Positions 4,072 through 19,308 are shown, numbered from the stretch's first letter. The stretch: DNA of 32,906 bases from Terriglobia bacterium (GCA_016650235.1 JAENWC010000259.1:1-32906), one strand, 5' to 3'. Numbers and translations: made by a program. The notes: generated by a model not told the origin, from the letters alone.

Positions 4072-6267
4072 CTACTTCAGGCTCCGCTCCAGAAAATTTG
4101 TCATCATCTCGATCATATGCCGGTGCGCCGGGCCGGACACGGCATGGCTTTTTTGCGGATAGATCTGAAATTCAAACTGCTTGCCGGCGCGCTGCAAGGC
4201 ATCCATCATGCGCAGCGTATGTTGGAATAATACGTTGTCATCTTCGAAGTTGTGCACCAGCAGAAGCTTTCCTTTGAGTTGGGAGGCATAGTGTACGGGT
4301 GAACCTGCCTTATAACCTTCCTCATTCTCCGATGGCAGCCCAAGGTAGCGCTCCGTATAAATGGTGTCGTAGTGACGCCAGTCGGTAACCGGGGCGCCTG
4401 AGATGCCGGCGTGAAAAGTCTCCGGCGCGTGGAACAGTCCATACAGAGTCATGAAGCCGCCATAGCTCCAGCCGTGGAGCCCAACGCGGGCCGCATCGAC
4501 AAAGCCGAGAGAGATGAGATGCTTTACGCCTTCCACCTGATCGGCTAACTCACGCTGCCCGAAACGCCGGTGCAATGGTTTCTCCCACACGTGGCCTCTT
4601 CCGGCCGATCCGCGTCCATCCATCTGCCAGATGACGAAACCGCGGTGCGCCAGCGCCTGATCCCAGTCGGCGCCGCGCCAGGACTCGCGCACGGTTTGTG
4701 CTTGCGGTCCTCCATAAACCATGACCACCGCCGGGTATTTCATGTCCTGCTGGAAGCCTGCGGGTTTGATCAGCCGCGCGTGAAACTCCGCGCCATCGCC
4801 GCCGCGGAAACGGATGAGTTCAGTCGGCAGAATCTCGAACTGCTGCTGCAGTTTCCTGTTGCGTTCACTGAGTACCGCCACCTCCGATCCATCGCTCAAA
4901 TGGAGGGAAGTGCGCGGTGGATCCACAAGGCTGGAGTGCGTGTCGGTGTAGGAGGCGCAATCGGGCGACATATGGATGGTGTGCGTTCCCGGTAGGGATG
5001 TGATCTTACGTTTGCCCGATCCATCCAGTCCCACACGATACAAGTGCCGCTCCAGCGGGCTGGCCTCGGTGGACATGTAGTAGGCCGCGCGTTGCCGCTG
5101 GTCCACGCATGCCAGATCGGTCACTTCCCATTCACCGGTTGTGAGCCGCTTGGGCTCGCCACCCAGCAGCGGGTACAGATAGAGATGCCGGTAGCCATCG
5201 CGCTCACTGCCCCACAGAAGTTCCTGCTTGGCGGCAAGGAATCGGGAATCGTCTCTCACATTGATCCAGGCGGAATCTGATTCCTCCAAGATACACGCGC
5301 AAGACGCAGCCTGCTTCGAGGCCCTTTGCGCTTCCAACTTTTGCGCTTTGCCGCTCGATGCATCGAAGGTTTGTAACCACAGCCGGTTCTGAATTCGCGT
5401 CAGGCGTTGCAGTGCCACAGCGCTGCTGTCCGGCATCCATTCCAGACGCGCGAGCAGACCGTCGGATGGTTCCCCCAACTCGAGCCATTTCGTTTTCCCG
5501 CCGCTGGCGGGGAGCACACCGGCCCGAACATTGGAGTTCGGAGTGCCCGCTTGGGGATAGCGCTGCGGTTCCGCCACTGGACGAATCTTCAAGAGATCGG
5601 CGTGGGGATAGATCATGATCGGGCTGGTGTCGAATTGAAGGTATGCGATGCGGCGGGAATCGGGCGACCACCAGTGGGCTGTGCCGAGATCCAGCTCTTC
5701 CGGATAGACCCAGTCGAGTTCCCCGTTGAGGCGGGTCGGGGATCCATCGGATGTGAGCCGTGTCCGCTTGCCGCTTGCGATCTCGAGAACCCATAGATCG
5801 TGCTCCAGCCGGAAACTGACCCGGCGCGCGTCCGGGGACAGCTTCGGATCCATCTCCGCCTCCGCGGTCCTGGTCAACTGCTTCCAATTGGAAGCGGCCA
5901 TGTCAAAGAGGAACAGATCGCCTTTGATCTGCAACAGCAACTGTCCGCCCGAACTGCTCCACTGCACCGGTTGCTCCCTGGCGCGGCGATTGGTCCACTC
6001 GAACGCCTCCGGTTGCGGCGTTGCCACGGCAGCCTCCTCCATCAGCCTGGTATCGACCAGTTCCTTCTCCTTTCGCGACGCAATGTCATAGAGGAGCAGT
6101 CGAGTGCCCTGCCGCCTGAGAAAGCTTTTTGAATCCGGAGACCAGATGGGATTGAAAGTGACCGGGCGTCCGCCCGCGGAGATGGATTCCAGTGTTACCG
6201 GCTTCTTGTCGCCGGCCAGCAGCGCGTGTGCGACCAGGAGCGGGAGAGCAAGCCGGTAGAGCGACAT
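4072..6267 (-). CDS. Prolyl oligopeptidase family S9 (DPP-IV-like) peptidase, exported
   Basis: The 731-residue protein begins with a signal peptide (LYRLALPLLVAHALLAG). A beta-propeller region follows (about residues 30-480), including DWVYPEELDLG, the glutamate-containing segment that binds the substrate N-terminus in DPP-IV enzymes. The C-terminal alpha/beta hydrolase domain carries the serine motif GWSYGG (Ser601), the aspartate region EDDNV (676-677) and His708 in KSHAV, so the catalytic triad is present. It probably removes dipeptides from peptides in the periplasm. It starts 8 bp after the methyltransferase-like gene with an AAGG upstream. Residues about 301-315 (EAQRASKQAASCA) are an extra peptide encoded by a copy of the 35-bp dispersed element. 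Confidence 0.9.
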   Translation of the reverse strand: MSLYRLALPLLVAHALLAGDKKPVTLESISAGGRPVTFNPIWSPDSKSFLRRQGTRLLLYDIASRKEKELVDTRLMEEAAVATPQPEAFEWTNRRAREQPVQWSSSGGQLLLQIKGDLFLFDMAASNWKQLTRTAEAEMDPKLSPDARRVSFRLEHDLWVLEIASGKRTRLTSDGSPTRLNGELDWVYPEELDLGTAHWWSPDSRRIAYLQFDTSPIMIYPHADLLKIRPVAEPQRYPQAGTPNSNVRAGVLPASGGKTKWLELGEPSDGLLARLEWMPDSSAVALQRLTRIQNRLWLQTFDASSGKAQKLEAQRASKQAASCACILEESDSAWINVRDDSRFLAAKQELLWGSERDGYRHLYLYPLLGGEPKRLTTGEWEVTDLACVDQRQRAAYYMSTEASPLERHLYRVGLDGSGKRKITSLPGTHTIHMSPDCASYTDTHSSLVDPPRTSLHLSDGSEVAVLSERNRKLQQQFEILPTELIRFRGGDGAEFHARLIKPAGFQQDMKYPAVVMVYGGPQAQTVRESWRGADWDQALAHRGFVIWQMDGRGSAGRGHVWEKPLHRRFGQRELADQVEGVKHLISLGFVDAARVGLHGWSYGGFMTLYGLFHAPETFHAGISGAPVTDWRHYDTIYTERYLGLPSENEEGYKAGSPVHYASQLKGKLLLVHNFEDDNVLFQHTLRMMDALQRAGKQFEFQIYPQKSHAVSGPAHRHMIEMMTNFLERSLK
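5297..5331 (+). repeat. 35-bp dispersed element, copy inside the S9 peptidase gene
   Basis: It begins GCGCAA and ends TTTGCGC, with 31 of 35 bases identical to the copy at 32735-32769. The host gene runs on the opposite strand and reads it as AQRASKQAASCA without a frame break. Confidence 0.85.
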
Positions 6268-6275
6268 ACTCTGCC

Positions 6276-6986
6276 TTACTTCTTACGAAAAAGGGCCAGG
6301 TACTGGCGATTAGGCGTAAAGACCCCGGTGGAGATCAACTGGAACCCGTTGGCTTCCAATTCCTTGATCACATCCGGTTCATCCAGGCGTATGTGCTTGG
6401 GGTCGCGGAAGCCGGACTGGTAGAAATCGACGATCGCCAGCCGTCCATCGGGTTTCAGACCTTTCGCAATTCCTGCCAGCATCTCGGCGGGATAGTCGAA
6501 GTGGTGGTAGACGTCAAGCACCAGCGCCAGATCGATGGAGGCGGCAGGCAAGTGTGGATCCTTTTCGGTGCCCTGGACAAAGGCGACATTGTCCAGTCCT
6601 TTGGCCGTGGCGTTCTCTCTGGCTCTTGCCAGGAAGTCAGGGAAGATATCCTCGGCCACAATTTTGCCCGCCGGTCCGACGGCTGCATGGAGGAAGGGCA
6701 GCATGTACCCGACCCCGGTGCCGATATCGGCCACGGTCATGCCGGCTTTGAGCTTCAGGTTTTCCACAAGATCCTTGGGCTTCTGCGTGGTTTCGCGATC
6801 GTGAGCAGACAAGGTCTGTCCCACGCGTTCACGGCCCTCTTTGGTCTTGTATCCCGAATTGGCGTAGTCGGCCGCTTGCGGAAAAACCGCCGTGCAGGCA
6901 AAGAAAAATAAGACAAGGTTCTTCATAAGCGCCAAGGGCGCCTGCCGCTCCGCTGAACTGGAAAGGGTCTCTGGACTTGGTTTCAT
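6276..6986 (-). CDS. Class I SAM-dependent methyltransferase with a predicted signal peptide
   Basis: The SAM-binding motif I is clear as VADIGTGVGYM, followed by an acidic motif (VAEDIFP) and the LALVLDVYHHF segment of Rossmann-fold methyltransferases. The substrate is unknown. The ATG at 6986 overlaps the hom stop codon as ATGA with GGAGA upstream, so coupled translation is likely. A second Met, 20 residues in, starts MKNLVLFFFACTAVFPQA, a good signal peptide. Export of a SAM-dependent enzyme is odd, because SAM is cytoplasmic. The enzyme might work before export, or the hydrophobic stretch might be an anchor. The sequence between the two Met codons resembles a degraded copy of the 35-bp dispersed element. 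The S9 peptidase follows 8 bp later. Confidence 0.8.
   Translation of the reverse strand: MKPSPETLSSSAERQAPLALMKNLVLFFFACTAVFPQAADYANSGYKTKEGRERVGQTLSAHDRETTQKPKDLVENLKLKAGMTVADIGTGVGYMLPFLHAAVGPAGKIVAEDIFPDFLARARENATAKGLDNVAFVQGTEKDPHLPAASIDLALVLDVYHHFDYPAEMLAGIAKGLKPDGRLAIVDFYQSGFRDPKHIRLDEPDVIKELEANGFQLISTGVFTPNRQYLALFRKK
6929..6960 (-). repeat. Possible degraded copy of the 35-bp dispersed element
   Basis: On the minus strand this stretch contains GCGGAGC and GCGCCCTTGGCGC, similar to the outer parts of the 35-bp element but about three bases shorter and without the left GCGCAAA end. The match is weak. Confidence 0.25.
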
Positions 6987-8287
6987 AATGATGTCTCCAT
7001 GGGTAATGCGAGTGGGGGTTCAATCAGAAAGTCGAGCGTCGACATGGTCTGCACCGCATCGCGCACATCCTTCTCGGAAGTCGGTTCGAGAGTGATGACA
7101 AAGGGCAGGTCCTCCTTGCCCTCGCCGGGCAACTGCAGCACCGCATCGAGGCTGATTTTCTTTTCAGCCAGGATGCCGGCCAGAGCGGCAATAATTCCGG
7201 GACGGTCCCTGACACGGAAGCGAAGATACCAGGCGCGCGTTTGCCGCGTAATGGGAATGGGGCGATACTCGCCGAGCCGCGCGTGAGCGAATGGGGAGAC
7301 ACGCTCCGGACTACCGCTGCGGATCTCACGCGCCACGCGCATCAAATCGCTCACCACAGCCACGCCGGTGGGGTGCGGACCGGCTCCGCGGCCGTAGTAG
7401 AACGTGTCCTGACCGTAATGGCCCCGTATCCAGATCGCGTTGTAAGCGCCCTGCACGCTGGCCAGAATAGTGGACTGCGGAATTAGAGCCGGACGCACAC
7501 TGAGCAGGAGACCTTCGCTGGTAAGGCGGGCGGCGCAGATGAGCCTGATGGTGTGGTTCAGTTTGTGCGCGTACTGAAAGTCGAACGGCGAGATGCGCCG
7601 GATGCCTTCGGTGTAGATGTCCGACGGAGTGATCCTTTCGCCAAAGGCGAGCGCCGTCAGGATGGCAAGCTTGGAGCGCGCATCGAAACCGTCGATATCG
7701 GCGCCGGGATCGGCCTCGGCGTATCCAAGCCGTTGCGCCTCCGCGAGAACGACTCCAAAGTCAGTCCCATTGCGTTCGATCTCGGTGAGGATGTAGTTGC
7801 TGGTTCCGTTCAGGATGCCGTACAGAGCGGATATGCGGTCCGCGGCAATCCCCTCGCGCAGCACGCTGTGAATGGGGATGCCTCCGGCCACGCTGGCCTC
7901 CATGGCGAGGTTGGTTCCGGCGGCAATGGCGCGATCCCAAACTTCAGCGCCTTGCAGGGCCATCAGCTCTTTGTTCGCTGTAACCACCGACTTGCCGGCC
8001 GCCAGAGCCGCGTTGATGATCTCGGCGGCGACACCGGTTCCGCCCACCAGTTCGGCTACGATATCCACATCGGCGGCGTTGACCACCTCCCGCCAATCCG
8101 TGGTGCGCCGCACAGGACCTAACGATTCCGGTAGCTGCTTCGTCTCAACGGTGCGGCTGCAGACGGCGGTAACACGCAGCCGGAAACCGAGCTTTTCCGC
8201 AATGCGAACAGCATCCTCAGCCAATATCGATAAAGTTCCCGAGCCGACGTTACCCAGACCGACAACGCCGACGTTAACTTCCAGCAT
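6983..8287 (-). CDS. hom: Homoserine dehydrogenase with ACT domain
   Basis: Hom reduces aspartate semialdehyde to homoserine with NAD(P)H, a step towards threonine and methionine. The 434-residue protein has the dinucleotide-binding GLGNVGSG at about residue 11, the ELVGG and VVTANKELMA blocks of the substrate domain, the signature DIDGFDARSKLAIL (catalytic Asp and Lys), and a C-terminal ACT domain beginning RDRPGIIAALAGIL (about 358 onward), which usually gives feedback control by threonine. The monofunctional length is normal. Only 27 bp separate its ATG from a divergent gene, so its promoter must overlap that gene or its own start region. It heads a four-gene operon. Confidence 0.95.
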   Translation of the reverse strand: MLEVNVGVVGLGNVGSGTLSILAEDAVRIAEKLGFRLRVTAVCSRTVETKQLPESLGPVRRTTDWREVVNAADVDIVAELVGGTGVAAEIINAALAAGKSVVTANKELMALQGAEVWDRAIAAGTNLAMEASVAGGIPIHSVLREGIAADRISALYGILNGTSNYILTEIERNGTDFGVVLAEAQRLGYAEADPGADIDGFDARSKLAILTALAFGERITPSDIYTEGIRRISPFDFQYAHKLNHTIRLICAARLTSEGLLLSVRPALIPQSTILASVQGAYNAIWIRGHYGQDTFYYGRGAGPHPTGVAVVSDLMRVAREIRSGSPERVSPFAHARLGEYRPIPITRQTRAWYLRFRVRDRPGIIAALAGILAEKKISLDAVLQLPGEGKEDLPFVITLEPTSEKDVRDAVQTMSTLDFLIEPPLALPMETSL

Positions 8288-8314
8288 AAACGGCTATGAT
8301 AACAATACTGAGCT

Positions 8315-8626
8315 ATGCGACACCTAATCCAAACCCTTTGCTGGCTGAGCGTCGCGGCCGCTTTGACGGCGGTATCTTCCGGCCAAAGACAATTCTCCGA
8401 TGAGGAGAAATCGCCCAAACTCAAACAGGAACAACTGGAACGGTTGCTCAAGGAAGACCACAAGAAATCTTTGGAAGACGCCTCGGAACTGGTTAAGTTG
8501 AGTGAAGAGCTGAAGATCGAGCTGGAGAAAACCGACCGTCACGTACTCTCGGTAACGGCGCTGAAGAAGACGGAAGAGATAGAGAAACTCGCCAAACGCA
8601 TTCGCTCCCGCATGCGCCGCTATTGA
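8315..8626 (+). CDS. Small secreted coiled-coil protein of unknown function
   Basis: This 103-residue protein starts with a signal peptide (LIQTLCWLSVAAALTAVSSGQ). The mature part is almost entirely charged heptad-like helix rich in Glu and Lys (KLKQEQLERLLKEDHKKSLE), ending in a basic tail, RIRSRMRRY. I do not recognise a family with a known function. It is probably a periplasmic helical protein. It is divergent from hom with 27 bp between the start codons, and pyrR follows about 100 bp downstream. Confidence 0.7.
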   Translation: MRHLIQTLCWLSVAAALTAVSSGQRQFSDEEKSPKLKQEQLERLLKEDHKKSLEDASELVKLSEELKIELEKTDRHVLSVTALKKTEEIEKLAKRIRSRMRRY

Positions 8627-8690
8627 CACGCCGCCATTGTGCAGGTATTCGCCGTGGACGGCTGTGTTACCATTTCTTGGAACCGTTCTA

Positions 8691-8705
8691 GGGCCGGGAC
8701 GGCCC
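8691..8705 (+). promoter_or_regulatory. Small GC hairpin upstream of pyrR
   Basis: GGGCCG (8691-8696) pairs perfectly with CGGCCC (8700-8705) over a three-base loop, 20 bp before the pyrR ATG. It could affect pyrR translation or act in attenuation. I do not see the Bacillus-type PyrR-binding loop, so any role is a guess. Confidence 0.3.
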
Positions 8706-8724
8706 ATTGCGGACCACCAATGCC

Positions 8725-9279
8725 ATGCCTGCCACACGCGAAAAAGCCCAACTGATGAGCGCCTCCGAGATCGACCGCACACTGGTGCGGCTGGCGCACG
8801 AGATCCTCGAAAAAACCGAGGACCTCGACAAGCTGGCATTCATCGGCATACGCCGCCGGGGCGTACCGCTGGCGCAGCGGCTGGCAGCCAAGATTGAAGC
8901 ACTGGAAGGACGGCAAGTGCCAGTGGGTATTCTGGACATCAATCTCTACCGTGACGACCTGTCCACGGTGGCCAACCAGCCCATCGTCAATGCAACCGAG
9001 ATCAGCTTTGCCGTCACCGGCAAAGACGTAATCCTAATGGACGATGTGCTGTACACGGGGCGCACCATCCGCGCGGCGCTGGATGCGCTGTTTGATCATG
9101 GGCGTCCGGCGCGAGTGCAACTGCTGGTGCTGATCGACCGCGGCCACCGTGAACTCCCCATCGAAGCCCGCTACATTGGCCGTGTTGTGCAAACCAGCTC
9201 GCAAGAGATCATCGAGGTCAAGCTCCGCGAGATCGACGGCATGGAGAAAGTCCTATTGGTCGAGGTGGAATCGAACTGA
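8725..9279 (+). CDS. pyrR: PyrR, pyrimidine operon regulator / uracil phosphoribosyltransferase
   Basis: PyrR binds pyr mRNA in response to UMP and in many bacteria also has uracil phosphoribosyltransferase activity. The PRPP-binding loop VILMDDVLYTGRTIRAALDAL is intact, as are the N-terminal ALSASEI-like segment (LMSASEIDRTLVRLAHEI) and the FIGIRRRGVPLAQRL block. I start at ATG 8725 because it fits the family; an in-frame TTG at 8707 would add six residues. It is the first gene of pyrR-pyrB-pyrC, with 7 bp to pyrB. Confidence 0.93.
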   Translation: MPATREKAQLMSASEIDRTLVRLAHEILEKTEDLDKLAFIGIRRRGVPLAQRLAAKIEALEGRQVPVGILDINLYRDDLSTVANQPIVNATEISFAVTGKDVILMDDVLYTGRTIRAALDALFDHGRPARVQLLVLIDRGHRELPIEARYIGRVVQTSSQEIIEVKLREIDGMEKVLLVEVESN

Positions 9280-9286
9280 GATTCCA

Positions 9287-10204
9287 ATGACAGCCACCGT
9301 CAAGGGATTATTGGGAATCGAGGAGATGGGCCGTCAGGAGATCCAGGCGATCCTGGATCGCGCCAAGGATTTTCAGTACCACCAGCACGAACCGGTAAAG
9401 AAGTTCACCATCCTGCAAGGGAAGATGATCGTCAACCTGTTTTTCGAGTCCTCCACGAGAACGCGGACCAGTTTTGAGATTGCCGCGAAACGTTTAGGGG
9501 CCGACTCGGTTTCCATCACCGCGTCCGGGTCCAGCGTATCCAAGGGCGAGTCGCTGGTGGACACTCTGAACACGCTGGCCGCCATGCGGCCGAGCGCCAT
9601 TGTGATGCGCCACGCAGCCTCCGGCGCGCCCCACTTTCTGGCGCGGTACCTGGAGATTCCCATCATCAATGCGGGCGACGGAACGCACGAGCATCCCACC
9701 CAGGCATTGCTCGATGCCCGAACCATTCTCGACCGGCGGCCGAGTCTGGAAGGCCTGCGCGTGGCCATCATCGGGGACATCGCACACAGCCGCGTAGCCC
9801 GTTCCAACGCGCATCTGCTTTCGAAGTTCGGCGCACAGGTGGTCTTATGCGGACCTCCGACGCTGCTGCCGCGCGAGTTGGCCCAGCTTGCGCCCAACAT
9901 CTCCCTGTCCTACGACATGAACGAGGCCATTGCCGGGGCCGATGTGATCATGATGCTCCGCGTGCAACTGGAGCGCCAGCACGAGGTGCTGTTCCCGGCG
10001 AGCGAATACTTCAAGTTCTACGGCCTCCGGCTGGAACACATTGAACAGGCCAAACCGGACGTGATCGTGATGCACCCTGGCCCCATCAACCGCGGCCGCG
10101 AGCTGGCTTCCGAGGTGGCCGATTCGCAGAGCTCGGTGATCCTGAACCAGGTGGAGAATGGCGTGGCCGTAAGAATGGCCGTGCTGGAACGGGTCTTGCA
10201 GTAG
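9287..10204 (+). CDS. pyrB: Aspartate carbamoyltransferase, catalytic chain
   Basis: PyrB joins carbamoyl phosphate to aspartate, the first committed step of pyrimidine synthesis. The 305-residue protein has the carbamoyl-phosphate motif FFESSTRTRTSFE, the KGES loop, DGTHEHPTQALLD, and the aspartate-binding HPGPINRG near the C-terminus. The start at ATG 9287 lies 7 bp after the pyrR stop. A longer in-frame extension into pyrR exists but would be atypical. No pyrI gene for a regulatory chain is adjacent. pyrC follows with one base between. Confidence 0.96.
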   Translation: MTATVKGLLGIEEMGRQEIQAILDRAKDFQYHQHEPVKKFTILQGKMIVNLFFESSTRTRTSFEIAAKRLGADSVSITASGSSVSKGESLVDTLNTLAAMRPSAIVMRHAASGAPHFLARYLEIPIINAGDGTHEHPTQALLDARTILDRRPSLEGLRVAIIGDIAHSRVARSNAHLLSKFGAQVVLCGPPTLLPRELAQLAPNISLSYDMNEAIAGADVIMMLRVQLERQHEVLFPASEYFKFYGLRLEHIEQAKPDVIVMHPGPINRGRELASEVADSQSSVILNQVENGVAVRMAVLERVLQ

Positions 10205-10205
10205 C

Positions 10206-11537
10206 ATGTCTTCACTTTTTTCGAACACGCGCAAAACGGAGCCAGCTTCGCGGCCCTTCGCGCTTCTCATCAAGAATGGCCGGCTGATGGACCCGGCAAC
10301 CGGTAGGGACGATGTGACTGACGTCGCCGTGGTCGATGGCCGCATAGCGGCGATTGGGGAAAACTTGTCCGGCGCCGGAGCGGAGGTATTTGACGCAAGC
10401 GGCTTGGTAGTGGCGCCCGGATTCATCGACATGCACGTGCATCTGCGGGAACCAGGCTTCGAGCATGCCGAAACTATCGAGACGGGCGGGAAGGCGGCGG
10501 CGGCCGGCGGATTTACCGCTATCTGCTGCATGCCGAACACGAAGCCGATCAATGACAACGCTACCGTCACCAGCTACATCGTTGAACGGGCCCGGCATCT
10601 GTCGCCGGTGAAGGTATTGCCGATCGGGGCCATCACCAAAAACAGCGCTGGGGAGGAACTGGCTTCCATCGGGGCGATGAAGCAGGCCGGTGTTGTGGCG
10701 ATTTCGGACGACGGCCGCCCGGTGATGAACTCGCGTGTAATGCGGCGGGCCATGGAACTGGCCGTTGGCTGGAATCTTCCGGTGATTGACCACTGCGAAG
10801 ACCTCAACCTGAGCGCGGGCGGGGACATGCATGAAGGACGCACGTCGGTCTCGCGCGGGCTGCGCGGGATTCCATCGGCTTCTGAAGACGTGATGGTAGC
10901 TCGGGACATCCTGCTGGCCGAACTTACGGGGGCGCGCTATCACGTCGCGCATATCTCCACTTCAAACGCCGTGGCGATGGTTGCGTTCGCCCGCGCCCGC
11001 GGTCTGAAAGTGAGTTGCGAGGTGACCCCACACCACTTTGCTCTAACTGATTCGGATATGGGTCCCTACGACAGCAACTTCAAGATGAAGCCGCCGCTGC
11101 GCGGCAAGCGGGATCTGGACGCGGTGACCAAGGGCCTGATCTCGGGAGCCATTGAGGTGATTGCCACCGATCACGCGCCTCACCCGGGCAGCGAGAAGAT
11201 GCAGGAGTTCGAGCGATGCCCGTTCGGCATTACCGGACTCGAGACGGCCCTCGCCTTGTCTCTCGAACAACTGGTTCATACCGGCCACATCTCACTCATG
11301 CGGCTCATAGAATTGTTCACCACCGGCCCTGCCCGCGTGCTTGGCCTCGACCTTGGCCGGCTTCGAGTGGCTGGCGAGGCGGATATCACCATCTTTGACC
11401 CCACCCGTCCCTGGACTTACGACGTTAACCGGACGCTCTCCAAGAGCAAGAACTCCCCGTTCCATATGAGGAATTTCAAAGGAGCGCCCGTGGCCACTAT
11501 CGTCGCAGGCAAGATCGTCTGGCGGCTGGACGCGTAG
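10206..11537 (+). CDS. pyrC: Dihydroorotase
   Basis: PyrC cyclises carbamoyl aspartate to dihydroorotate. The 443-residue protein is a class I-type amidohydrolase with the zinc motif DMHVHLREPG, PNTKPINDN, DHCED, VAHIST and the late DHAPH motif. The family part begins at about LLIKNGRLMDPATG (residue 20). The preceding residues (SNTRKTEPASRPFA) are an extension encoded by a copy of the 35-bp dispersed element at 10229-10263. The start is 1 bp after the pyrB stop, so the cistrons are coupled. Partial resemblance to the same element recurs just after the stop codon. Confidence 0.95.
   Translation: MSSLFSNTRKTEPASRPFALLIKNGRLMDPATGRDDVTDVAVVDGRIAAIGENLSGAGAEVFDASGLVVAPGFIDMHVHLREPGFEHAETIETGGKAAAAGGFTAICCMPNTKPINDNATVTSYIVERARHLSPVKVLPIGAITKNSAGEELASIGAMKQAGVVAISDDGRPVMNSRVMRRAMELAVGWNLPVIDHCEDLNLSAGGDMHEGRTSVSRGLRGIPSASEDVMVARDILLAELTGARYHVAHISTSNAVAMVAFARARGLKVSCEVTPHHFALTDSDMGPYDSNFKMKPPLRGKRDLDAVTKGLISGAIEVIATDHAPHPGSEKMQEFERCPFGITGLETALALSLEQLVHTGHISLMRLIELFTTGPARVLGLDLGRLRVAGEADITIFDPTRPWTYDVNRTLSKSKNSPFHMRNFKGAPVATIVAGKIVWRLDA
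10229..10263 (+). repeat. 35-bp dispersed element, copy at the pyrC N-terminus
   Basis: It begins GCGCAAAACGGAGCC and ends CGCGC, with 32 of 35 bases identical to the copy at 32735-32769. It lies on the coding strand of pyrC and is read as RKTEPASRPFA, just before the first conserved residues of the enzyme. Confidence 0.85.
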
Positions 11538-11947
11538 AAACGCAAAGGGCGCTCGCCGCGCCACCGAATTCCAGAGGAACACGCGGCTTAGTGCTCGGTT
11601 TCAGAAGTTCGCTCACGTATTCACGGAGCCGATAGGGGAACACTTGGCTATACTTGGCGACAAGTCAGGAGCTATTTCTGAGAACGCCGTTTGGGGACCG
11701 CCAGCGGCACAAGTCCAGGATGACAAACTATACGTCCAAAGCATCTCTCCTCTGAATTCTTCGCCACAGGCCTGTCGTCCCAAGGTGGATCACGCAGATC
11801 TCTGAGTGAACGGAAACTCCGGGAAAGAGAATGGAGCGATATGAGCGCCTTACAAGTATCGGTTCTATCGCGTGATGTCGGTAGCAAGAGCATTAGCCTA
11901 ACGAGGCCTTGAAGGGCTATCAAATTCTGATAGACTTGAGGGGGTTT
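11538..11947. other. Gene-free stretch between pyrC and the methyltransferase island
   Basis: No convincing gene is present. Right after the pyrC stop, at about 11540-11562, a minus-strand stretch with ACGCAAAGGGC looks like half of the 35-bp dispersed element. A minus-strand frame at 11672-11923 has no domain and no ribosome-binding site. The stretch probably marks the left border of an inserted cassette; I see no att-like repeat shared with the right border. Confidence 0.5.
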
Positions 11948-12211
11948 GTGAACAGAAACATGATCTATAACCGATCACAGGCGATTGAAAAGCGGTTGCG
12001 CGACATCATAGATCTAGTCAGTTGCGGGCGGCACTCCACCCCCACCCTTGCGCGAGCACTGAAGGTTTCCGAGCCGACTGTATCGAGGTGTTTGACGGCT
12101 CTCCGTCAACGTGGCTATTTGATCAGGCCAGTCAAGGATGAAAGCGGCTGGTCTTACGAAGTGACAGCTAAGCCTAGAAACGCTTCGTTTGCGAACGACG
12201 GTCCACGATGA
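11948..12211 (+). CDS. Winged-helix DNA-binding protein, probable regulator of the methyltransferase cassette
   Basis: The protein is about 87 residues. The HTH is plain: TPTLARALKVSEPTVSRCL, followed by a wing (ALRQRGYLIRPVKDESGWSYEV), as in MarR/DeoR-like and ArsR-like folds. It may bind the cassette promoter and limit expression, as control proteins do in restriction-modification systems; that is inference. The start is uncertain. The GTG at 11948 follows GAGGGGG closely, ATG 11960 is also possible, and an in-frame ATG at 11909 is less likely. Its stop overlaps the methyltransferase start as ATGA, so the two are cotranslated. Confidence 0.7.
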   Translation: MNRNMIYNRSQAIEKRLRDIIDLVSCGRHSTPTLARALKVSEPTVSRCLTALRQRGYLIRPVKDESGWSYEVTAKPRNASFANDGPR

Positions 12212-15200
12212 ACCTTGCAACGCACAAAGACTGGCAAAAGGAGTTTGGCATCGAACGGGCCGCTATGACGGTCTTCTTTGGAAGCAAAGCGGAGTTGCAC
12301 GCGCAAGGAGTTGTTGTGTCACAAGGGCACATCCTACGCCGTGCCTTTGACATGCTGAAGCTCGACGGGATTCTCTGCGGCGAGAACGCTCCGCTCGTTT
12401 ACTTCAAACTGGTGAAAAGAATCGAAATTGCTGAGGTTGCCCGACTTCATCGCAAGTTCTGGAACCACGGCGGCGCGCCTATCCTAGTGCTCGTCGCGCC
12501 GGATCAGGTTCATGATTATTCGGGTCTCATACGGCCACTCCCAGAAGCAGACCTCAGTGGCACCGTTCCTGGCCTTGTGGAAATTCTGAATCGGGCCTCC
12601 GCCGAAATCCGAGAGTTCTTGCCTGCCGTCGAATCCGGCGAGTTCTTCCGGCGGCATAAGCAATTATTCAATCCGGCGCACCGCGTGGATCGGGTCTTGC
12701 TCGACAATCTTCAGGCGACCCGGGAAAAACTCGTCGCCAAATCCATCGGGAAACTCGACCCCAAAGTACTGGATGCCTTGCTCTGTCGGCTCGTGTTTGC
12801 GTGTTACCTCTTCGACCGTGAGGTGGTGGGTGAAACCTACTTGCGAGCCATCGGCTTACGGCGCGCAAGCCACCTTCGGGATGTGCTCGCCATACAACCA
12901 AGGACCAAGGCCAAACAGTACCTCTACGAGCTCTTCCGGAAGCTTGGCAATGACTTCAACGGCGACCTGTTCAGCGACGACATTGACGAGGAAGCCCGAC
13001 TGGTGGACTCCTCTTATATCGAGCCTTTGGACGATTTCTTCCGAGCGACCGACGTTCTGAGTGGGCAGGGTTCAATCTGGCCCTACGACTTCGCGGCCAT
13101 CCCCATCGAGGCTATCAGCGCGATCTACGAGCGGTTCCTGAACGGCTCCGACAAGCTCGAAGGCTCGTTCTACACGCCGCGGTTTCTCGCGGAACTCGTC
13201 CTCGACGTGGCGCTCGCCAAGATGCCCTCCTTGCTTGGCCATCGCTATCTCGACCCTGCCTGTGGGTCGGGCATCTTCCTTGTCGGTTTGTTCAACCGAA
13301 TGGCCGAAGAGTGGAAGCAGGAGAACCCCGAGGCCCGAAATGACCGCCGAGCGCGGGAACTGAGGAAGATTCTTTGCAGCAGGCTCTACGGTGTCGATAT
13401 CAATCCCACGGCGTGCAGGATCACTGCGTTCAGCCTTTACTTGGCTTACCTGGATCAACTTACGCCACGGGACATTCAGGAACTGCGGCAGAACGGACAC
13501 AAGCTGCCTACGCTTGTCCATTACCAGGAAAACACCACGCGTGGGGAGATCGAAGGAAATATCTGGTGTGGGGATTTCTTCGCTGAAGGCGCCAAGTACC
13601 CCGCTGATGCCGACCTGGTCATCGGTAACCCACCATGGGGTAGCTTAGCGGTTGAGGGCACGCCAGCCGCCAAGTGGTGTGCGCATCCCGATCATCAATG
13701 CCCGGTCCCAGACAAGCAGATCTCGGCGGCGTTCGTTTGGAAAGCGGCGCACCACGTCGCCGACAGTGGAAGAATTTGTCTCGTGCTGCCGCACGGCACC
13801 CTGTTCAATCACAGTACGAAAGCCCTGGAGTTTCAGCGAACACTGTTCGAGCGCCACGCGGTTGACGTTGTACTCAATCTCGTAGACTTCCAGTTCTTTC
13901 TCTTCGAAGAGGCTCGCCATCCAGCCGTTGTCATTGCTTTTCAGAAGAGCCCTCCTGTCACCGAGCAGCATTCTATCGACTACTGGACGCCAAAATCAGA
14001 TTGGTCGGTCATGCGTGCTGACATCATTGCGATTGCGCCTGAAGACCGCTGGTCGGTAACGGTGGGCCATGTACTTCGTGATTTGGCTGGAGTGGATGCC
14101 CCTCAAGTTTGGAAGCAACGACATTGGGGGACACCAAGGGATTGGAGGTTGCTTGACCGGCTATCCATATATCCTCGATTACGCGACCATGTCCGGCATG
14201 TGAAAGAGAAAGGGACACAGAAGCCTTGGCTCGTGGCTGTCGGCTTCAAACCGGTCGTCGGGAAGAACGGTCCGGCCAAGTCAGATCCAATTCAGCTTCC
14301 TACGAATTTGTTCATCGAAGCGACATCGTCTAGTCTCAATCTCTTCCTGCTTCCCGGCGACTGCACCAAACTGCCAGCTCCGGAGATAGCCATGAGTCGT
14401 GGATCAACTAGCACGGCAGTATTCCGGGCTCCCCATGTTCTCGTAGCGAAAGGATTCACTAGCACTGCGTTTGCTGATTTCGATGTCTCCTTCCAAGATG
14501 CCGTCCGAGGGATCAGTGGGCCCAAAGAAGATCGCGGCCTGCTTATGTTTTTGGCCGCCTATTTGCGGTCAACCGTGGCGAAGTACTTCCTATTTCAGAC
14601 ATCCTCCAACTGGGGAGTAAGTAGGCAAGAAGTTCATGTAGAGGAACTGCTCCGATTGCCGTTCCCGCTGCCTGACGTGACGCCAACTCCCCGGCGTGCC
14701 TGGGAAATCGTCGAGGAGGTCGGGGAGATCGTTACTTCGGCGGCGGAAAAAGCGGGTGAAGATTTCACTGACCGTGAGAGTCTTGTACGGGCCGCCAGCG
14801 ATTCTATTGAGACTTTGATCGACGAATATTTCGACATCCTCCCGATGGAGAAAGCCCTGATCGACGACACGGTGCGAGTCATCATCCCCAGCGTCCGCCC
14901 GACGAGGAAGCGGCGGGTCATTCCTACGATCGCCCCGAGCAACCAGCAACAGCGGGACGACTATACGAAATGCCTCTGCGATACCCTAAATGGGTGGGCG
15001 AAGAGCGGTCCGTTCGTCGTTCAGGGCCGTGCAACAGCCTCCGCGGAACTCGGGATTGGCGTTACAGTCCTCCAAAAGACTCGCTCTGGCAAGGTAGCAT
15101 CTGGGCCACCACAGGATTTGAGCGATCTGTTGGCTGCGCTGGACCGCCTCCGCAAGGTCACGTCACAGAAGTTCAACACCTTCGAACTGAGCCGCGGCGC

Positions 15201-15339
15201 TAAAGTATTCGACCGCGACTGCCTATATGTGGTGAAACCAATCGGGCAACGATTCTGGACGCAAACGGCCGCCCTGAATGACGCTGATGAGATTGCGGGC
15301 ACGATCCTTATGCACACGCCGCAGAGGGTGGCGTGGTAA
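12208..15339 (+). CDS. Type IIG-like (Eco57I-type) N6-adenine DNA methyltransferase
   Basis: The 1043-residue protein has methyltransferase motif I DPACGSGIF (Asp349) and the catalytic motif IV NPPW (Asn474), the gamma-class order, plus FYTPRFLAELVLD just before motif I. The N-terminal about 300 residues (LRRAFDMLKLDGILC, YFKLVKRIE, LHRKFWN, LVLVAPDQVHDYSGL) match the N-terminal region seen in large Eco57I-like restriction-methylation proteins. Residues about 540-830 would include the target-recognition region, with the typical SSNWGVSRQEVHVEELLRLP-like segment. No helicase motif is seen. It should methylate adenine in a specific DNA site. It overlaps the upstream HTH gene by 4 bp and the downstream nuclease by 7 bp. 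Flanking gene-free DNA suggests acquisition by transfer. Confidence 0.85.
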   Translation: MNLATHKDWQKEFGIERAAMTVFFGSKAELHAQGVVVSQGHILRRAFDMLKLDGILCGENAPLVYFKLVKRIEIAEVARLHRKFWNHGGAPILVLVAPDQVHDYSGLIRPLPEADLSGTVPGLVEILNRASAEIREFLPAVESGEFFRRHKQLFNPAHRVDRVLLDNLQATREKLVAKSIGKLDPKVLDALLCRLVFACYLFDREVVGETYLRAIGLRRASHLRDVLAIQPRTKAKQYLYELFRKLGNDFNGDLFSDDIDEEARLVDSSYIEPLDDFFRATDVLSGQGSIWPYDFAAIPIEAISAIYERFLNGSDKLEGSFYTPRFLAELVLDVALAKMPSLLGHRYLDPACGSGIFLVGLFNRMAEEWKQENPEARNDRRARELRKILCSRLYGVDINPTACRITAFSLYLAYLDQLTPRDIQELRQNGHKLPTLVHYQENTTRGEIEGNIWCGDFFAEGAKYPADADLVIGNPPWGSLAVEGTPAAKWCAHPDHQCPVPDKQISAAFVWKAAHHVADSGRICLVLPHGTLFNHSTKALEFQRTLFERHAVDVVLNLVDFQFFLFEEARHPAVVIAFQKSPPVTEQHSIDYWTPKSDWSVMRADIIAIAPEDRWSVTVGHVLRDLAGVDAPQVWKQRHWGTPRDWRLLDRLSIYPRLRDHVRHVKEKGTQKPWLVAVGFKPVVGKNGPAKSDPIQLPTNLFIEATSSSLNLFLLPGDCTKLPAPEIAMSRGSTSTAVFRAPHVLVAKGFTSTAFADFDVSFQDAVRGISGPKEDRGLLMFLAAYLRSTVAKYFLFQTSSNWGVSRQEVHVEELLRLPFPLPDVTPTPRRAWEIVEEVGEIVTSAAEKAGEDFTDRESLVRAASDSIETLIDEYFDILPMEKALIDDTVRVIIPSVRPTRKRRVIPTIAPSNQQQRDDYTKCLCDTLNGWAKSGPFVVQGRATASAELGIGVTVLQKTRSGKVASGPPQDLSDLLAALDRLRKVTSQKFNTFELSRGAKVFDRDCLYVVKPIGQRFWTQTAALNDADEIAGTILMHTPQRVAW

Positions 15340-16010
15340 TCGGTACACCTGCAGAATGGGCCGACCTAATCGACCCAATGGTTCCAGTCATCCTTAGCTT
15401 GGTAGTGGAAAGTTGGGAAGACATGCTGCAACCTGCATCGGATGAGACGGAAGATCACATCACGATTTCATTGTATCGGATCCTCAGGCAGAACAAAGCG
15501 GCTCGCGAACTGCCGTTTCGGATCAATATACAACGCTTCGAGCTTGATGCATTATCTGACAAGGAACATGGCCGGCAAGACATTGTGTTTGAGCCCCTAC
15601 ATCCTTGTGAGGATATCTACTTTTGTCTGGAAAGCAAGCGATTGAACGTCGTCAAAGATGGCAAGCCACGGGCGTATGCCTCTGAATATGTCACGCACGG
15701 CATGTTGAGGTTCGTCACTGGCCAGTATTCTAAGGCAGTCCGACATGGTGGAATGCTCGGGTACGTGCTCGACGGCAACATCTCTGGTGCCATAACCAAT
15801 GTCGAAGCAAACATTCGAAAGCGGCACTTCGCGTTGTGCATGGTCCCGCCGGGCGGGTTCGTGCCTTCATCAGCACTGGCGGATCATGCGCGCGCAAGGG
15901 AGACGCACCACCAGCGTGCCCATGAGGCCAGTCTTTTCCGCATTCATCACCTATTCATGGCTGCTGGTCGTCCCGCTAGGCCCCTCGGTTGGTTAACGCC
16001 CGACCCGTAG
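15333..16010 (+). CDS. Probable PD-(D/E)XK nuclease of the methyltransferase cassette
   Basis: I recognise no named family, but residues 83-102 fit a PD-(D/E)XK nuclease core: Asp83 in RQDIVFEP, a spacer strand, then Glu100-Ser-Lys102 in FCLESKRLNV. Downstream is a helix with YVTHGMLRFVTGQYSK, and the C-terminus FRIHHLFMA looks like a natural family end followed by a short tail. The 225-residue protein starts at a GTG that overlaps the methyltransferase gene by 7 bp, so the two are coupled. It would be the restriction subunit or a partner nuclease cutting unmodified DNA; that role is inference. Confidence 0.65.
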   Translation: MVIGTPAEWADLIDPMVPVILSLVVESWEDMLQPASDETEDHITISLYRILRQNKAARELPFRINIQRFELDALSDKEHGRQDIVFEPLHPCEDIYFCLESKRLNVVKDGKPRAYASEYVTHGMLRFVTGQYSKAVRHGGMLGYVLDGNISGAITNVEANIRKRHFALCMVPPGGFVPSSALADHARARETHHQRAHEASLFRIHHLFMAAGRPARPLGWLTPDP

Positions 16011-16569
16011 AATAGAAGTGCCCAAGGCGTTAGACCAATCTGGGAAGTTTGTCCGAATGACTCGCGATAAACGCTAGAAACCTATCTGGAGTGACCCCGC
16101 GCCGTGTTGCACGGGCGTGACGAAACGTCGACCGCCGGGTCACTTCGGATAGGGACGTTTGAAGGAAGCCTCTCGCGGTTGCGGCGGGCGCGGCACTTAT
16201 GGATTTTCAATTGCAACCGAATGATAACAGGAGCCTTGGCGGAATGCTCCCCCTCGTTGCTGCGGGGCCAACGCGGTGCCGACCATCACCAGCATGGTAG
16301 TCCCGCAAGCGGCAGAAGGCAAGTTCAACAGTTCAACGACGTCCTGCTCAACTACCGGCACGCGTAGCGTCCGCCGCGAGAGCGGCTTCGTTCATACGCC
16401 GTAGTCCAGATCGAACTGCCCTGTGGGCAGCGGAACGCCGCAATGAAGCGCTTCGTACCCCCCTGGCATCGCTAGCAAATACGTGGACGAACTTCTGAAA
16501 CGTAGATATTAGGTTCGCGGCGCGCGACTCCATTTTGCGCGGCATTTTTAAAAGACATACCATAAGGCT
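16011..16569. other. Gene-free stretch right of the nuclease cassette
   Basis: About 560 bp has no frame with a ribosome-binding site or recognisable domain. Two short frames (16104-16367 plus, 16348-16563 minus) look random in composition. It may hold decayed insertion debris and the promoter of the following membrane protein gene. Confidence 0.5.
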
Positions 16570-19308
16570 GTGGAATACGACGCGCTCCCCGGAAAACGAA
16601 AACCCGCCAATTGGCGATATCTCCTTCTCTTCCTGATCCTGCTGCTGGCCGGTGCGCGCACCGTTGCCAGCACCGTCATCGAGTATCAGTGGTGGAAAGA
16701 GATGGGCCAGGTGCCGGTGTGGTTCAGTCTGCTGGCCTATGGCGTGGCCCCAGTTGCCGCCACATCTCTGATCGGCTTCGCCCTGTTGTGGGTTGCTCTG
16801 GCGCGCGGAGTGAAGTTCGGCGGGTACGGACTCAGCCAGACGCCGATGGTGGCCAGGGTCGGCACGCTGGTTGTCTTTGCCCTCGGCGTTTTCATTGCCA
16901 TGGCTTCCATCGACACAGACGTCGTGATCCGGTTTTTTGGCAGCAGCGGCGCGACGTCCCCCACTGCGGCCTGGGCCGATCCGATTTTCAAGCTCCCGCT
17001 TTCCTTTTACCTGTTTGACCTTCCCTTTTACAACTTGATCCGGGGCTACATCTTGACTATCTCCCTTGCCGCTGCCGTGGTCTTTTGGCTATCGGCGCGC
17101 GCGAGCCAGTTGCGGGAAAGCATCCAAGCGGTCCAGCAAAGCGGCGAGTTCGATCTGCGCATGCTGCGTCTGGAAGGCGGCATCGAGTCCTTATTCCTGA
17201 AGGGCACCGTCATCGTGTTCCTGATCTCACTCGCGGTGAAGTTTTACCTGGACCGCTACCTGATGCTGTTCAACGACCATGGCTTCATGGTGGGCGTCGA
17301 TTATGTGGACCAGAACATACGGCTGCCGTTGCAGTGGGCCGCCATCGCGGCCTGCCTCCTCGCCATTCTCCTGATCTTCGCCAGGAAGTGGCGTTGGCTC
17401 CCCGCTCTGCTGGTGGTGTACGCGCTCCAGATCATCGCCCCGAGCGCCGTTTCGGCGCTCTACGTGCGTCCGAATGAAATCTCCATACAGCGCCCCTATA
17501 TCGAGAAACACATTGACGCCACCCGCCATGCCTATGCGTTGACTTCCCGCGTAAAGGAAACCGAATTCGCGGCAAGGATGGATGCTCGCATTGACCCGGC
17601 CAAGCACAAAGCTATCTTTGATAACGTGCGCCTGTGGGACTGGCGCGCATTCCACGACACCGTGACTCAGATACAGGCCTTGCGCCCCTATTACGTTTTC
17701 GCCGATAGCGATGTGGACCGGTACACCATCGACGGCCAGTTGCGCCAGGTGATGCTCACCCCGCGCGAGTTGGATATCCGCCAGTTGCCCGACGCCCGCA
17801 CGCGATGGATCAACCCGCATTTCATCTACACGCATGGTTACGGCATGGTGATGGCCGAGGCGAACCGCATCACTCCCGACGGCTTGCCGCATCTGTTGGT
17901 CCAGGACGCGCCAGCCAAGGTTGTGGCGTCCGGACTACAACTCACCCGGCCGGAGATCTACTACGGCGAAGTGGTCCATGAGCCCGTTTTTGTGCGCACC
18001 GCCGAGAAGGAATTCAGCTACCCGTCCGGAAACGCGGGCGTGTTCACTCAATACGATGGACCCGGCGGCTTCCCCATTTCATCCATCTTCATGCGATTGA
18101 TGGCGGCGCTGCGCGAGGCCGACCCGAACATCCTGCTCACTTCCATCCTCACGCCGGAAAGCCGTATGATGATCCGGCGCAACGTCCGGAACCGGTTGAA
18201 TTCCCTGGCCGATTTCGTGATCTGGGACGAGGATCCCTATCTGGTTCTCAACGACGACGGGAAATTGATCTGGACCGTCGACGGCTACACGACGGCGATG
18301 GCTCATCCCTACTCGAAAATCTCTTCGAGCCCTGAAACCGGGCGGATGAATTATATCCGGAACTCCGTAAAGGCGACGCTGGATGCCTATACCGGCGAGG
18401 CGATTCTGTACATCTTCGACCCTTCGGATCCGATCATCCTCGCCTACCAGCATTTATTCCCCACGCTCTTCCAGCCGGCCTCAGCGATGCCGGCCTCGAT
18501 GCGCCGGCACGCGCGCTACCCGGAGACGTTTTTCCGGGTGCAATCCGAGATCTACCGCGTCTACCACATGACCGATCCGCAGGCCTTCTACAACAAGGAG
18601 GACGTATGGGACATCGCCCGGAACATCTACGGCAAGGAAGGCACCCCGCAGAGTGTACAACCCACTTATGTGGTGGCGACGCTGCCGGGCGAGAAAGACC
18701 CGGAGTTTTTGTTGATCCTTCCGTTCACCCCGCGTAGCAAGGACAACTTGATCGGACTGATGGTGGCGCGCTGCGATGGCGACAAGCTGGGAGAGTTGCA
18801 TTTCCTGCAGCTATCCAAGCAGCAGTTGATTTTCGGGCCGATGCAGATCGAGGCCAGGATCAATCAGGATCAGGTGATTTCGAAAGATTTGACGTTATGG
18901 AACCAGCAAGGCTCTCAAGTGTTGCGAGGCCAGATGCTGGTGTTGCCGGTGGAGGACACCTTCTTGTACGTAGAACCCATTTACATACAAGCCTCCGAGG
19001 CGCGCATGCCGCAGTTGAAGAAAGTGGTGCTGGCGATGGGGGATAAGCTCATCTACCGCGACACTTATGCGGAGGCGCTGGCGGAATTGGCTGGGCTGCC
19101 GGCGGCGCCGGCGCAACAGGGCACTACCACTTCATCGGGCGCTGCGCCGGCCGCACCCGCCGCGGGAGCTCCGCCGGCGACGACGGATGCACGCGTGGAA
19201 CAGATCCGGCAGCACCTGCGCCGCTATCGCGACCTCGCCGCGCAGGGCAAGTGGGCCGAGGCAGGCAAGGAACTGGAAGCGATCGAGGGGATTGCCAAGA
19301 GCAGGTAG
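16570..19308 (+). CDS. UPF0182 family membrane protein
   Basis: The 912-residue protein matches UPF0182 (COG1615), whose function is unknown. About seven membrane segments fill the first 300 residues, with family-like EYQWWKEMGQ, DRYLMLFNDHGFMVGVDYVDQNIRLP and VRPNEISIQRPYIEKHI. A large domain follows (about 310-840), with ANPHFIYTHGYGMVMA-like NPHFIYTHGYGM and YVEPIYIQA near its end. The C-terminus is Ala/Pro-rich, then a predicted helix, VEQIRQHLRRYRDLAAQGKW. The start GTG at 16570 has a weak TAAGG very close. The hicB gene follows 4 bp later, but that pairing is probably incidental. Confidence 0.9.
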   Translation: MEYDALPGKRKPANWRYLLLFLILLLAGARTVASTVIEYQWWKEMGQVPVWFSLLAYGVAPVAATSLIGFALLWVALARGVKFGGYGLSQTPMVARVGTLVVFALGVFIAMASIDTDVVIRFFGSSGATSPTAAWADPIFKLPLSFYLFDLPFYNLIRGYILTISLAAAVVFWLSARASQLRESIQAVQQSGEFDLRMLRLEGGIESLFLKGTVIVFLISLAVKFYLDRYLMLFNDHGFMVGVDYVDQNIRLPLQWAAIAACLLAILLIFARKWRWLPALLVVYALQIIAPSAVSALYVRPNEISIQRPYIEKHIDATRHAYALTSRVKETEFAARMDARIDPAKHKAIFDNVRLWDWRAFHDTVTQIQALRPYYVFADSDVDRYTIDGQLRQVMLTPRELDIRQLPDARTRWINPHFIYTHGYGMVMAEANRITPDGLPHLLVQDAPAKVVASGLQLTRPEIYYGEVVHEPVFVRTAEKEFSYPSGNAGVFTQYDGPGGFPISSIFMRLMAALREADPNILLTSILTPESRMMIRRNVRNRLNSLADFVIWDEDPYLVLNDDGKLIWTVDGYTTAMAHPYSKISSSPETGRMNYIRNSVKATLDAYTGEAILYIFDPSDPIILAYQHLFPTLFQPASAMPASMRRHARYPETFFRVQSEIYRVYHMTDPQAFYNKEDVWDIARNIYGKEGTPQSVQPTYVVATLPGEKDPEFLLILPFTPRSKDNLIGLMVARCDGDKLGELHFLQLSKQQLIFGPMQIEARINQDQVISKDLTLWNQQGSQVLRGQMLVLPVEDTFLYVEPIYIQASEARMPQLKKVVLAMGDKLIYRDTYAEALAELAGLPAAPAQQGTTTSSGAAPAAPAAGAPPATTDARVEQIRQHLRRYRDLAAQGKWAEAGKELEAIEGIAKSR

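Follow-up and report, generated by a model that had tools for sequence, protein, structure and literature searches.

A conserved methyltransferase-nuclease gene pair with its own regulator on an inverted-repeat element: a probable two-protein restriction-modification system

Gene organisation of the cassette

The window analysed here is a stretch of 32,906 nucleotides from a Terriglobia bacterium (GCA_016650235.1, JAENWC010000259.1:1-32906), in which three consecutive genes encode a small winged helix-turn-helix (HTH) regulator, a large DNA methyltransferase and a separate small nuclease (Table 1). An earlier note on this DNA had described three overlapping genes between gene-free flanks of about 410 and 560 bp, and this is borne out by the open reading frame coordinates: all three genes lie on the + strand, the regulator and methyltransferase genes share 4 bp (ATGA), the methyltransferase and nuclease genes share 7 bp, and the flanks measure 410 bp on the 5' side and 559 bp on the 3' side. 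The methyltransferase gene is present as a single copy in the source genome. No helicase adjoins the cassette, as had also been stated, and its three proteins match no helicase family.

Table 1. Features of the cassette and its surroundings (positions counted from the first letter of the window)
Feature	Position	Strand	Details
pyrC	10206-11537		flanking gene, upstream side
5' gene-free DNA	11538-11947		
Left 24-nt inverted repeat	11598..11621	+	22/24 complementary to 16478-16501; repeat homology ~11544-11643
Regulator gene (small winged HTH)	11948..12211	+	87 aa from GTG start at 11948; 100 aa from alternative TTG at 11909
Methyltransferase gene (gamma-class N6-adenine, MmeI-like architecture)	12208..15339	+	1043 aa; basis: Pfam, PADLOC, AlphaFold2, VIA-align
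Methyltransferase N-terminal domain, aa 20-112	12265..12543	+	at the position of the Type IIG/IIL nuclease domain
Predicted target-recognition region, methyltransferase aa 661-770	14188..14517	+	beta-rich (AlphaFold2 secondary structure); inside the MmeI match
Nuclease gene (PD-(D/E)XK-type, separate polypeptide, unannotated family)	15333..16010	+	225 aa, GTG start; basis: invariant residues, AlphaFold2, VIA-align
3' gene-free DNA	16011-16569		
Right 24-nt inverted repeat	16478..16501	-	repeat homology ~16394-16541
UPF0182 membrane protein gene	16570-19308		flanking gene, downstream side

Conservation of the gene pair

Methyltransferase loci were taken from plasmids, from viral contigs and from 80 contigs of genomes that represent many phyla. 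Wherever the contig continues far enough, a nuclease reading frame is found directly 3' of the methyltransferase gene, save for few exceptions, and the distance from methyltransferase stop to nuclease start is -4 in 47 of 103 loci and -1 in a further 21. The exceptions with room downstream both stem from viral contigs: in one (L106) the methyltransferase is shortened, and in the other (L112) a transposase-like sequence follows in place of the nuclease. Three further loci lacking the nuclease (L114-L116) encode distant proteins outside the family. Within the Acidobacteriota (386-396 genomes), the methyltransferase search and an independent search with a nuclease profile returned the same 6 genomes, the chance of identical six-genome sets being ~2e-13, and all 22 loci found through the nuclease profile carry the methyltransferase immediately upstream. 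With the same order and overlap, the pair recurs in ~100 loci across phyla; this recurrence exceeds chance, and the pairing of methyltransferase and nuclease is obligate. The earlier note had named conserved co-occurrence as a point on which its reading could fail: the pair proved to be strictly conserved, with both active sites intact. As in restriction-modification systems in general, the methyltransferase and endonuclease genes adjoin and are conserved as a unit.

The pair ranges over Acidobacteriota, Planctomycetota, Pseudomonadota, Verrucomicrobiota, Chloroflexota, Cyanobacteriota and anaerobic methanotrophic (ANME) archaea, as well as plasmids and proviruses, and its culturable carriers include Singulisphaera acidiphila DSM 18658, Limnoglobus roseus PX52 and Bradyrhizobium elkanii USDA 61. 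In the methyltransferase tree phyla are mixed, with the protein from the window grouping with those of planctomycetes and of one viral contig, which indicates frequent horizontal transfer of the unit. The presence of both genes side by side in many phyla, including some archaea, suggests that they form a type of bacterial immune system which has received little notice and would travel on mobile DNA.

Sequence and predicted structure of the two enzymes

The large protein is assigned to the N6-adenine methyltransferases by Pfam (N6_Mtase 1.9e-19, Eco57I 6e-14) and matches the PADLOC model REase_MTase_IIG PDLC03623 over nearly its full length (1.7e-93). An AlphaFold2 model, computed with an alignment of 81 family members, has a mean predicted local distance difference test (pLDDT) score of 90.7, and its best solved match in VIA-align is MmeI (Z 23.4, 578 residues): residues 160-890 align to MmeI 161-895, that is, to the connector, methyltransferase and recognition region, with DrdV, BrxX/PglX, CamA and M.BseCI as further structural matches. 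Motif I (DPACGSG, 349-355) and motif IV (NPPW, 474-477) are strongly conserved, N474, P476 and W477 without exception among family members, so that Asn474, chosen as a catalytic residue in the earlier note, is indeed part of an invariant motif. Beyond the MmeI match, residues 901-1036 (window 14908-15315) form a C-terminal domain of the order a-b-b-a-b-b-a, in which W1017, A1022 and D1025 are conserved.

The nuclease was correctly recognised as PD-(D/E)XK-like. Among ~100 diverse homologues, E40, D83, E100, K102, Y119, H193 and H206 are invariant, including the Glu100 and Lys102 that had been singled out beforehand, and E40, D83 and E100-x-K102 make up the E...D...(E/D)xK catalytic set, which is present in the nuclease family. 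The AlphaFold2 model (pLDDT 92.8) finds as its top VIA-align matches the restriction enzymes OkrAI (Z 8.3), BglII (7.5), BamHI (7.5) and BstYI (7.4), followed by McrC, Can2, MunI and NucC: the Z values are moderate, and the list consistently names members of the PD-(D/E)XK superfamily, in agreement with the invariant residues. In sequence searches, the nuclease from the window matches no family in Pfam, PADLOC or NCBIfam and no nuclease among the PDB sequences, and 80 of its homologues gave 0 matches in Pfam, PADLOC and PHROGs.

N-terminal domain of the methyltransferase

In the AlphaFold2 model, the domain that takes the place of the nuclease part of Type IIG/IIL enzymes has the predicted order a-a-b-b-a-b-b. 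At the ExK position, in a register set by secondary structure and manual alignment, glutamate is found in 0 of 81 family members and lysine in 22 of 81: where true Type IIG proteins read '...RPDY...FVEAKKPS...YGW...ILTNFEYLVIYD', the methyltransferase from the window reads 'LDGILCGENAPLVYFKLVK...FWNHGGAPILVLVAPDQVHDYS'. The earlier note had taken the nuclease to be an addition to an in-chain one, and this did not hold: as the ExK glutamate is missing family-wide, an extra nuclease beside an intact in-chain nuclease is ruled out, and the separate nuclease most likely replaces the in-chain cutter. We propose that the N-terminal domain is an inactive nuclease remnant or docking platform.

Recognition of the DNA site

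The predicted target-recognition region is the most divergent part in some otherwise close methyltransferase pairs. Once overall divergence had been removed, divergence of the nuclease across 74 related sequences did not follow that of the recognition region (partial r 0.01, 95% -0.12 to 0.14); the highest value was obtained with the methyltransferase N-terminal domain (0.27, 0.16 to 0.36), and that for the methyltransferase core was 0.23. Since changes in the nuclease are not matched by changes in the recognition region, guidance by the methyltransferase is favoured: the result suggests that the methyltransferase steers the nuclease rather than the nuclease having recognition of its own, and is only suggestive because the sequence pairs are related. 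Identity profiles of the family display no hypervariable recognition region, with whole proteins diverging together. A clean exchange of recognition domains, which we looked for as proof of guidance, was found in none of the close pairs; there is only a moderate dip in L070 compared with L072/L079, where the recognition region shares 57-59% identity and the nuclease 79-80%, like the remaining protein.

Regulator genes

The regulator from the window matches Pfam HTH families with E ~3e-5, under the gathering scores. Winged-HTH genes of 78-116 aa are present, in a similar gene order, in nearly all nearest relatives, with identities to the protein from the window of 51% (L023) and 50% (L103). In a second clade (Verrucomicrobiota, desulfobacteria, Lentisphaerota and others) the first gene is instead of the LexA type, with LexA DNA-binding and S24 peptidase domains, and such regulators lie directly before the methyltransferase in L041, L042, L045-L048, L050-L053, L055, L075 and L077; in an alphaproteobacterial clade the first gene encodes a distinct 158-aa protein. 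Regulator type tracks the methyltransferase tree, with 3 changes compared to 17 in shuffles. We infer a role of the regulator in expression timing or damage-linked induction, and the LexA-regulated clade offers a way to test whether DNA damage and restriction are linked. In L053 a perfect 20-bp palindrome, TACTACTCATATGAGTAGTA, lies just 5' of the start of the LexA-type regulator.

Mobile element and genomic neighbourhood

The earlier description of the locus, sound as to genes and flanks, had overlooked that inverted repeats bracket the cassette and that, compared with a related genome, it is an insertion. With up to 3 mismatches allowed, the genome has 14 copies of the 24-nt repeat, located in the window and on contigs C77, C343, C34, C86, C243, C427, C455, C552 and others, and 0 of a reversed control; none was found in a congener genome, and the relatives are without it except for one weak match. 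On C77 a facing pair ~0.8 kb apart surrounds a different small gene (weak TfoX_N match), the ends of this element matching those in the window separately (left 77% over 101 bp, right 74% over 148 bp), and the right-end repeat shares 80% identity over 109 bp with a copy on C343. The repeat family is genome-specific with distinct left and right ends, and has the appearance of a non-autonomous, cargo-carrying inverted-repeat element. Repeat homology around the cassette extends from ~11544, 6 bp past pyrC, to 16541, ~28 bp short of the UPF0182 gene. In a relative from the same family (G406, L138), pyrC and the UPF0182 gene are ~30 bp apart, which represents an empty site. Given this empty site and the bracketing repeat homology, the cassette is most simply read as the cargo of a ~5.0-kb inverted-repeat element, without a transposase of its own, which has gone in almost exactly between pyrC and the UPF0182 gene.

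Many plasmids and some viral contigs carry loci of the family. In L092 (~4993-10091) the cassette is contained in ~5 kb of DNA bounded by tRNA-Phe on one side and an exact 47-bp copy of the 3' end of the tRNA on the other, the arrangement that site-specific integration would produce. In L066, L072 and L077 the cassette is flanked by direct repeats of 126-230 bp (84-94% identity), with 0 found in 144 mismatched flank pairs. A plain listing of neighbours in other genomes includes genes of Gabija, Zorya, Wadjet (JetD), Dpd, DRT and Type I restriction-modification systems.

Proposed mechanism and alternative explanations

We consider it probable that the cassette encodes a two-protein restriction-modification system together with a dedicated regulator and is carried by an inverted-repeat mobile element. 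The methyltransferase would use its MmeI-like recognition region to find a DNA site and would methylate an adenine in host DNA, and the separate PD-(D/E)XK nuclease would cut unmodified DNA, such as that of an invading phage, probably in a complex in which the methyltransferase supplies sequence recognition. The small winged-HTH protein, in whose place other clades have a LexA/S24-type or different protein, would control expression so that methylation can precede cutting. A restriction system with split cutting, as the earlier note had suggested, is thus the best reading left after our tests, while its notion of an added nuclease beside a full Type IIG enzyme has fallen away. In a stronger form, which we advance tentatively and hold to be somewhat doubtful, the family would be a separate and widespread class: an MmeI-type enzyme would have lost its own cutting site, and its inactivated N-terminal nuclease domain would dock a dedicated nuclease that acts in trans. 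One recognition domain would then still serve both modification and restriction, and yet the two could be separately expressed and regulated, in one clade under LexA-type (DNA-damage) control.

Several observations weigh against these proposals. The nuclease Z values of 7-8 fall in the range where the aligner warns of a merely common arrangement, and Foldseek searches of the nuclease model against the PDB and viral models returned nothing significant. No natural fusion of methyltransferase and nuclease was seen among the loci, and the co-variation test, with its 74 related sequences, is weak. Comparison of the 81 family N-termini with 6 Type IIG sequences by hhalign paired positions 72-114 with 100-141, in the expected register and at a P of 0.21, which is not significant; for this reason a dead nuclease domain goes no further than a proposal. 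Finally, the top structural matches OkrAI, BglII, BamHI and BstYI are Type IIP enzymes, each of which locates its palindromic site unaided, and this would fit a self-guided nuclease. This last point belongs to an explanation that we regard as unlikely, namely a conventional Type II system in which an independent, Type IIP-like nuclease of the BamHI/BglII fold group acts on the same site, the gamma-class methyltransferase only protects the host, and its N-terminal extension is a mere structural domain. The nuclease is of the usual Type IIP size (225 aa), and gamma-class methyltransferases with a separate restriction endonuclease (TaqI, SalI, PstI) as well as Type IIH systems (AhdI) are known arrangements (PMC3874165, PMC4081073). 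However, nuclease and recognition region show no correlated change after removal of overall divergence, and the methyltransferase is MmeI-like: judging from MmeI biology, a lone methyltransferase of this type, which marks one strand, would not be expected to protect from a site-specific nuclease acting freely. In addition, conventional gamma-class methyltransferases are usually ~400-600 aa long, not ~1040.

A different effector logic appears improbable to us. Here the methyltransferase would mark self and the nuclease would be a suicidal or non-specific effector, freed when marking fails or a phage is sensed, or the pair would be a plasmid-addiction module. The many members on plasmids and mobile elements would suit this, as would the link to DNA damage suggested by the LexA/S24-type regulators of one clade and the presence of the activated nucleases NucC and Can2 in the PDB match list (Z ~5.0-6.2); however, restriction enzymes outrank both of these matches, and the pair is not accompanied by any conserved gene for a sensor, an ATPase or nucleotide signalling. 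We think it very improbable that methylation serves mainly gene regulation, with the nuclease degenerate or engaged in housekeeping DNA processing. While the recognition region is well kept within clades (identity ~83-96% within the L058-L061/L080/L104 group), unlike in fast-diversifying restriction systems, not one catalytic residue of the nuclease varies, and the distribution is patchy (6 of 386 Acidobacteriota genomes), horizontal and on mobile elements. We return to the two-protein system: the cassette is a real, conserved and under-annotated variant of restriction-modification, whose function is strongly suggested by the evidence above.

Comparison with known systems

BREX (bacteriophage exclusion) and Type I and III systems had been set aside in the earlier note, correctly on present evidence. 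The methyltransferase fold does align to BrxX (Z ~16.5), and weak NCBIfam PglX matches were obtained; however, the cassette is without PglZ, BrxC, BrxL or any other core gene, and the PglX score of 74.5 is far under the cut-off of 400, so that the gene content fits neither BREX nor a BREX-related system. In the parts of a BREX survey from 2026 available to us, the pair is not described (PMC12839542). Type I and III systems, and likewise ISP restriction-modification, do not fit either, as the three proteins have no match to a helicase/translocase motor.

Type IIT enzymes (BspD6I, BtsI) resemble the cassette in that the small nuclease depends on a larger partner for recognising DNA; in these enzymes, however, the large partner is a nuclease and not a methyltransferase, and the small subunit of BspD6I (2p14) matches our nuclease model with a Z of only 5.0. 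With Type IIH (AhdI, 'Type 1 1/2') and TaqI-type systems the cassette shares a separate nuclease gene, a gamma-class methyltransferase and a nuclease of Type IIP-like size and fold class. It differs from both in that its nuclease would probably not recognise DNA alone, from AhdI (2M+2S, with separate M and S) in that methyltransferase and recognition region form one chain, and from the compact TaqI enzyme in the length of its methyltransferase (~1040 aa), to which the recognition region is fused and which has an additional domain at its N-terminus.

In domain architecture the cassette resembles Type IIG/IIL enzymes (MmeI, DrdV, BpuSI), the methyltransferase exhibiting the helical connector, gamma-class methyltransferase and recognition region of MmeI. 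Type IIG enzymes are defined by a gamma-class methyltransferase and recognition domain with the cleavage domain in the same chain, at its N-terminus (PMC3874165, PMC4081073), whereas the nuclease of the cassette has a gene of its own and the in-chain N-terminal domain is without the ExK glutamate (81/81). As an in-chain cleavage site is thus lacking in the alignment, the cassette is not to be filed as Type IIG, though it may work alike. A stand-alone PD-(D/E)XK protein tied to Type IIG biology and mobile elements, HVO_A0006 of Haloferax, is on record (PMC4389544); it is described as a rare fragment of a Type IIG nuclease region, unlike the intact and widely conserved two-gene unit here. A literature search, limited to freely available papers, returned no description of a split Type IIG system in which the nuclease has a separate gene.

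Two PADLOC models labelled Type IIG, PDLC03623 and PDLC03603, match members of the split family. With a methyltransferase that lacks the ExK site and a separate nuclease, this label misses an unmodelled cutter, and defence surveys may count one single-chain enzyme where two proteins exist. In databases the large protein appears as a Type IIG enzyme and its small partner as a 'hypothetical protein', which leads surveys to misclass the system and overlook its cutter: a defence-like pair conserved from archaea to cyanobacteria is at present half invisible. Should the nuclease be steered by the methyltransferase, the pair would be a natural two-part, re-targetable restriction enzyme, in effect a Type IIG/IIL enzyme with its cutting function in a second chain, and would permit a direct test of the relation between single-chain Type IIG enzymes and multi-subunit systems.

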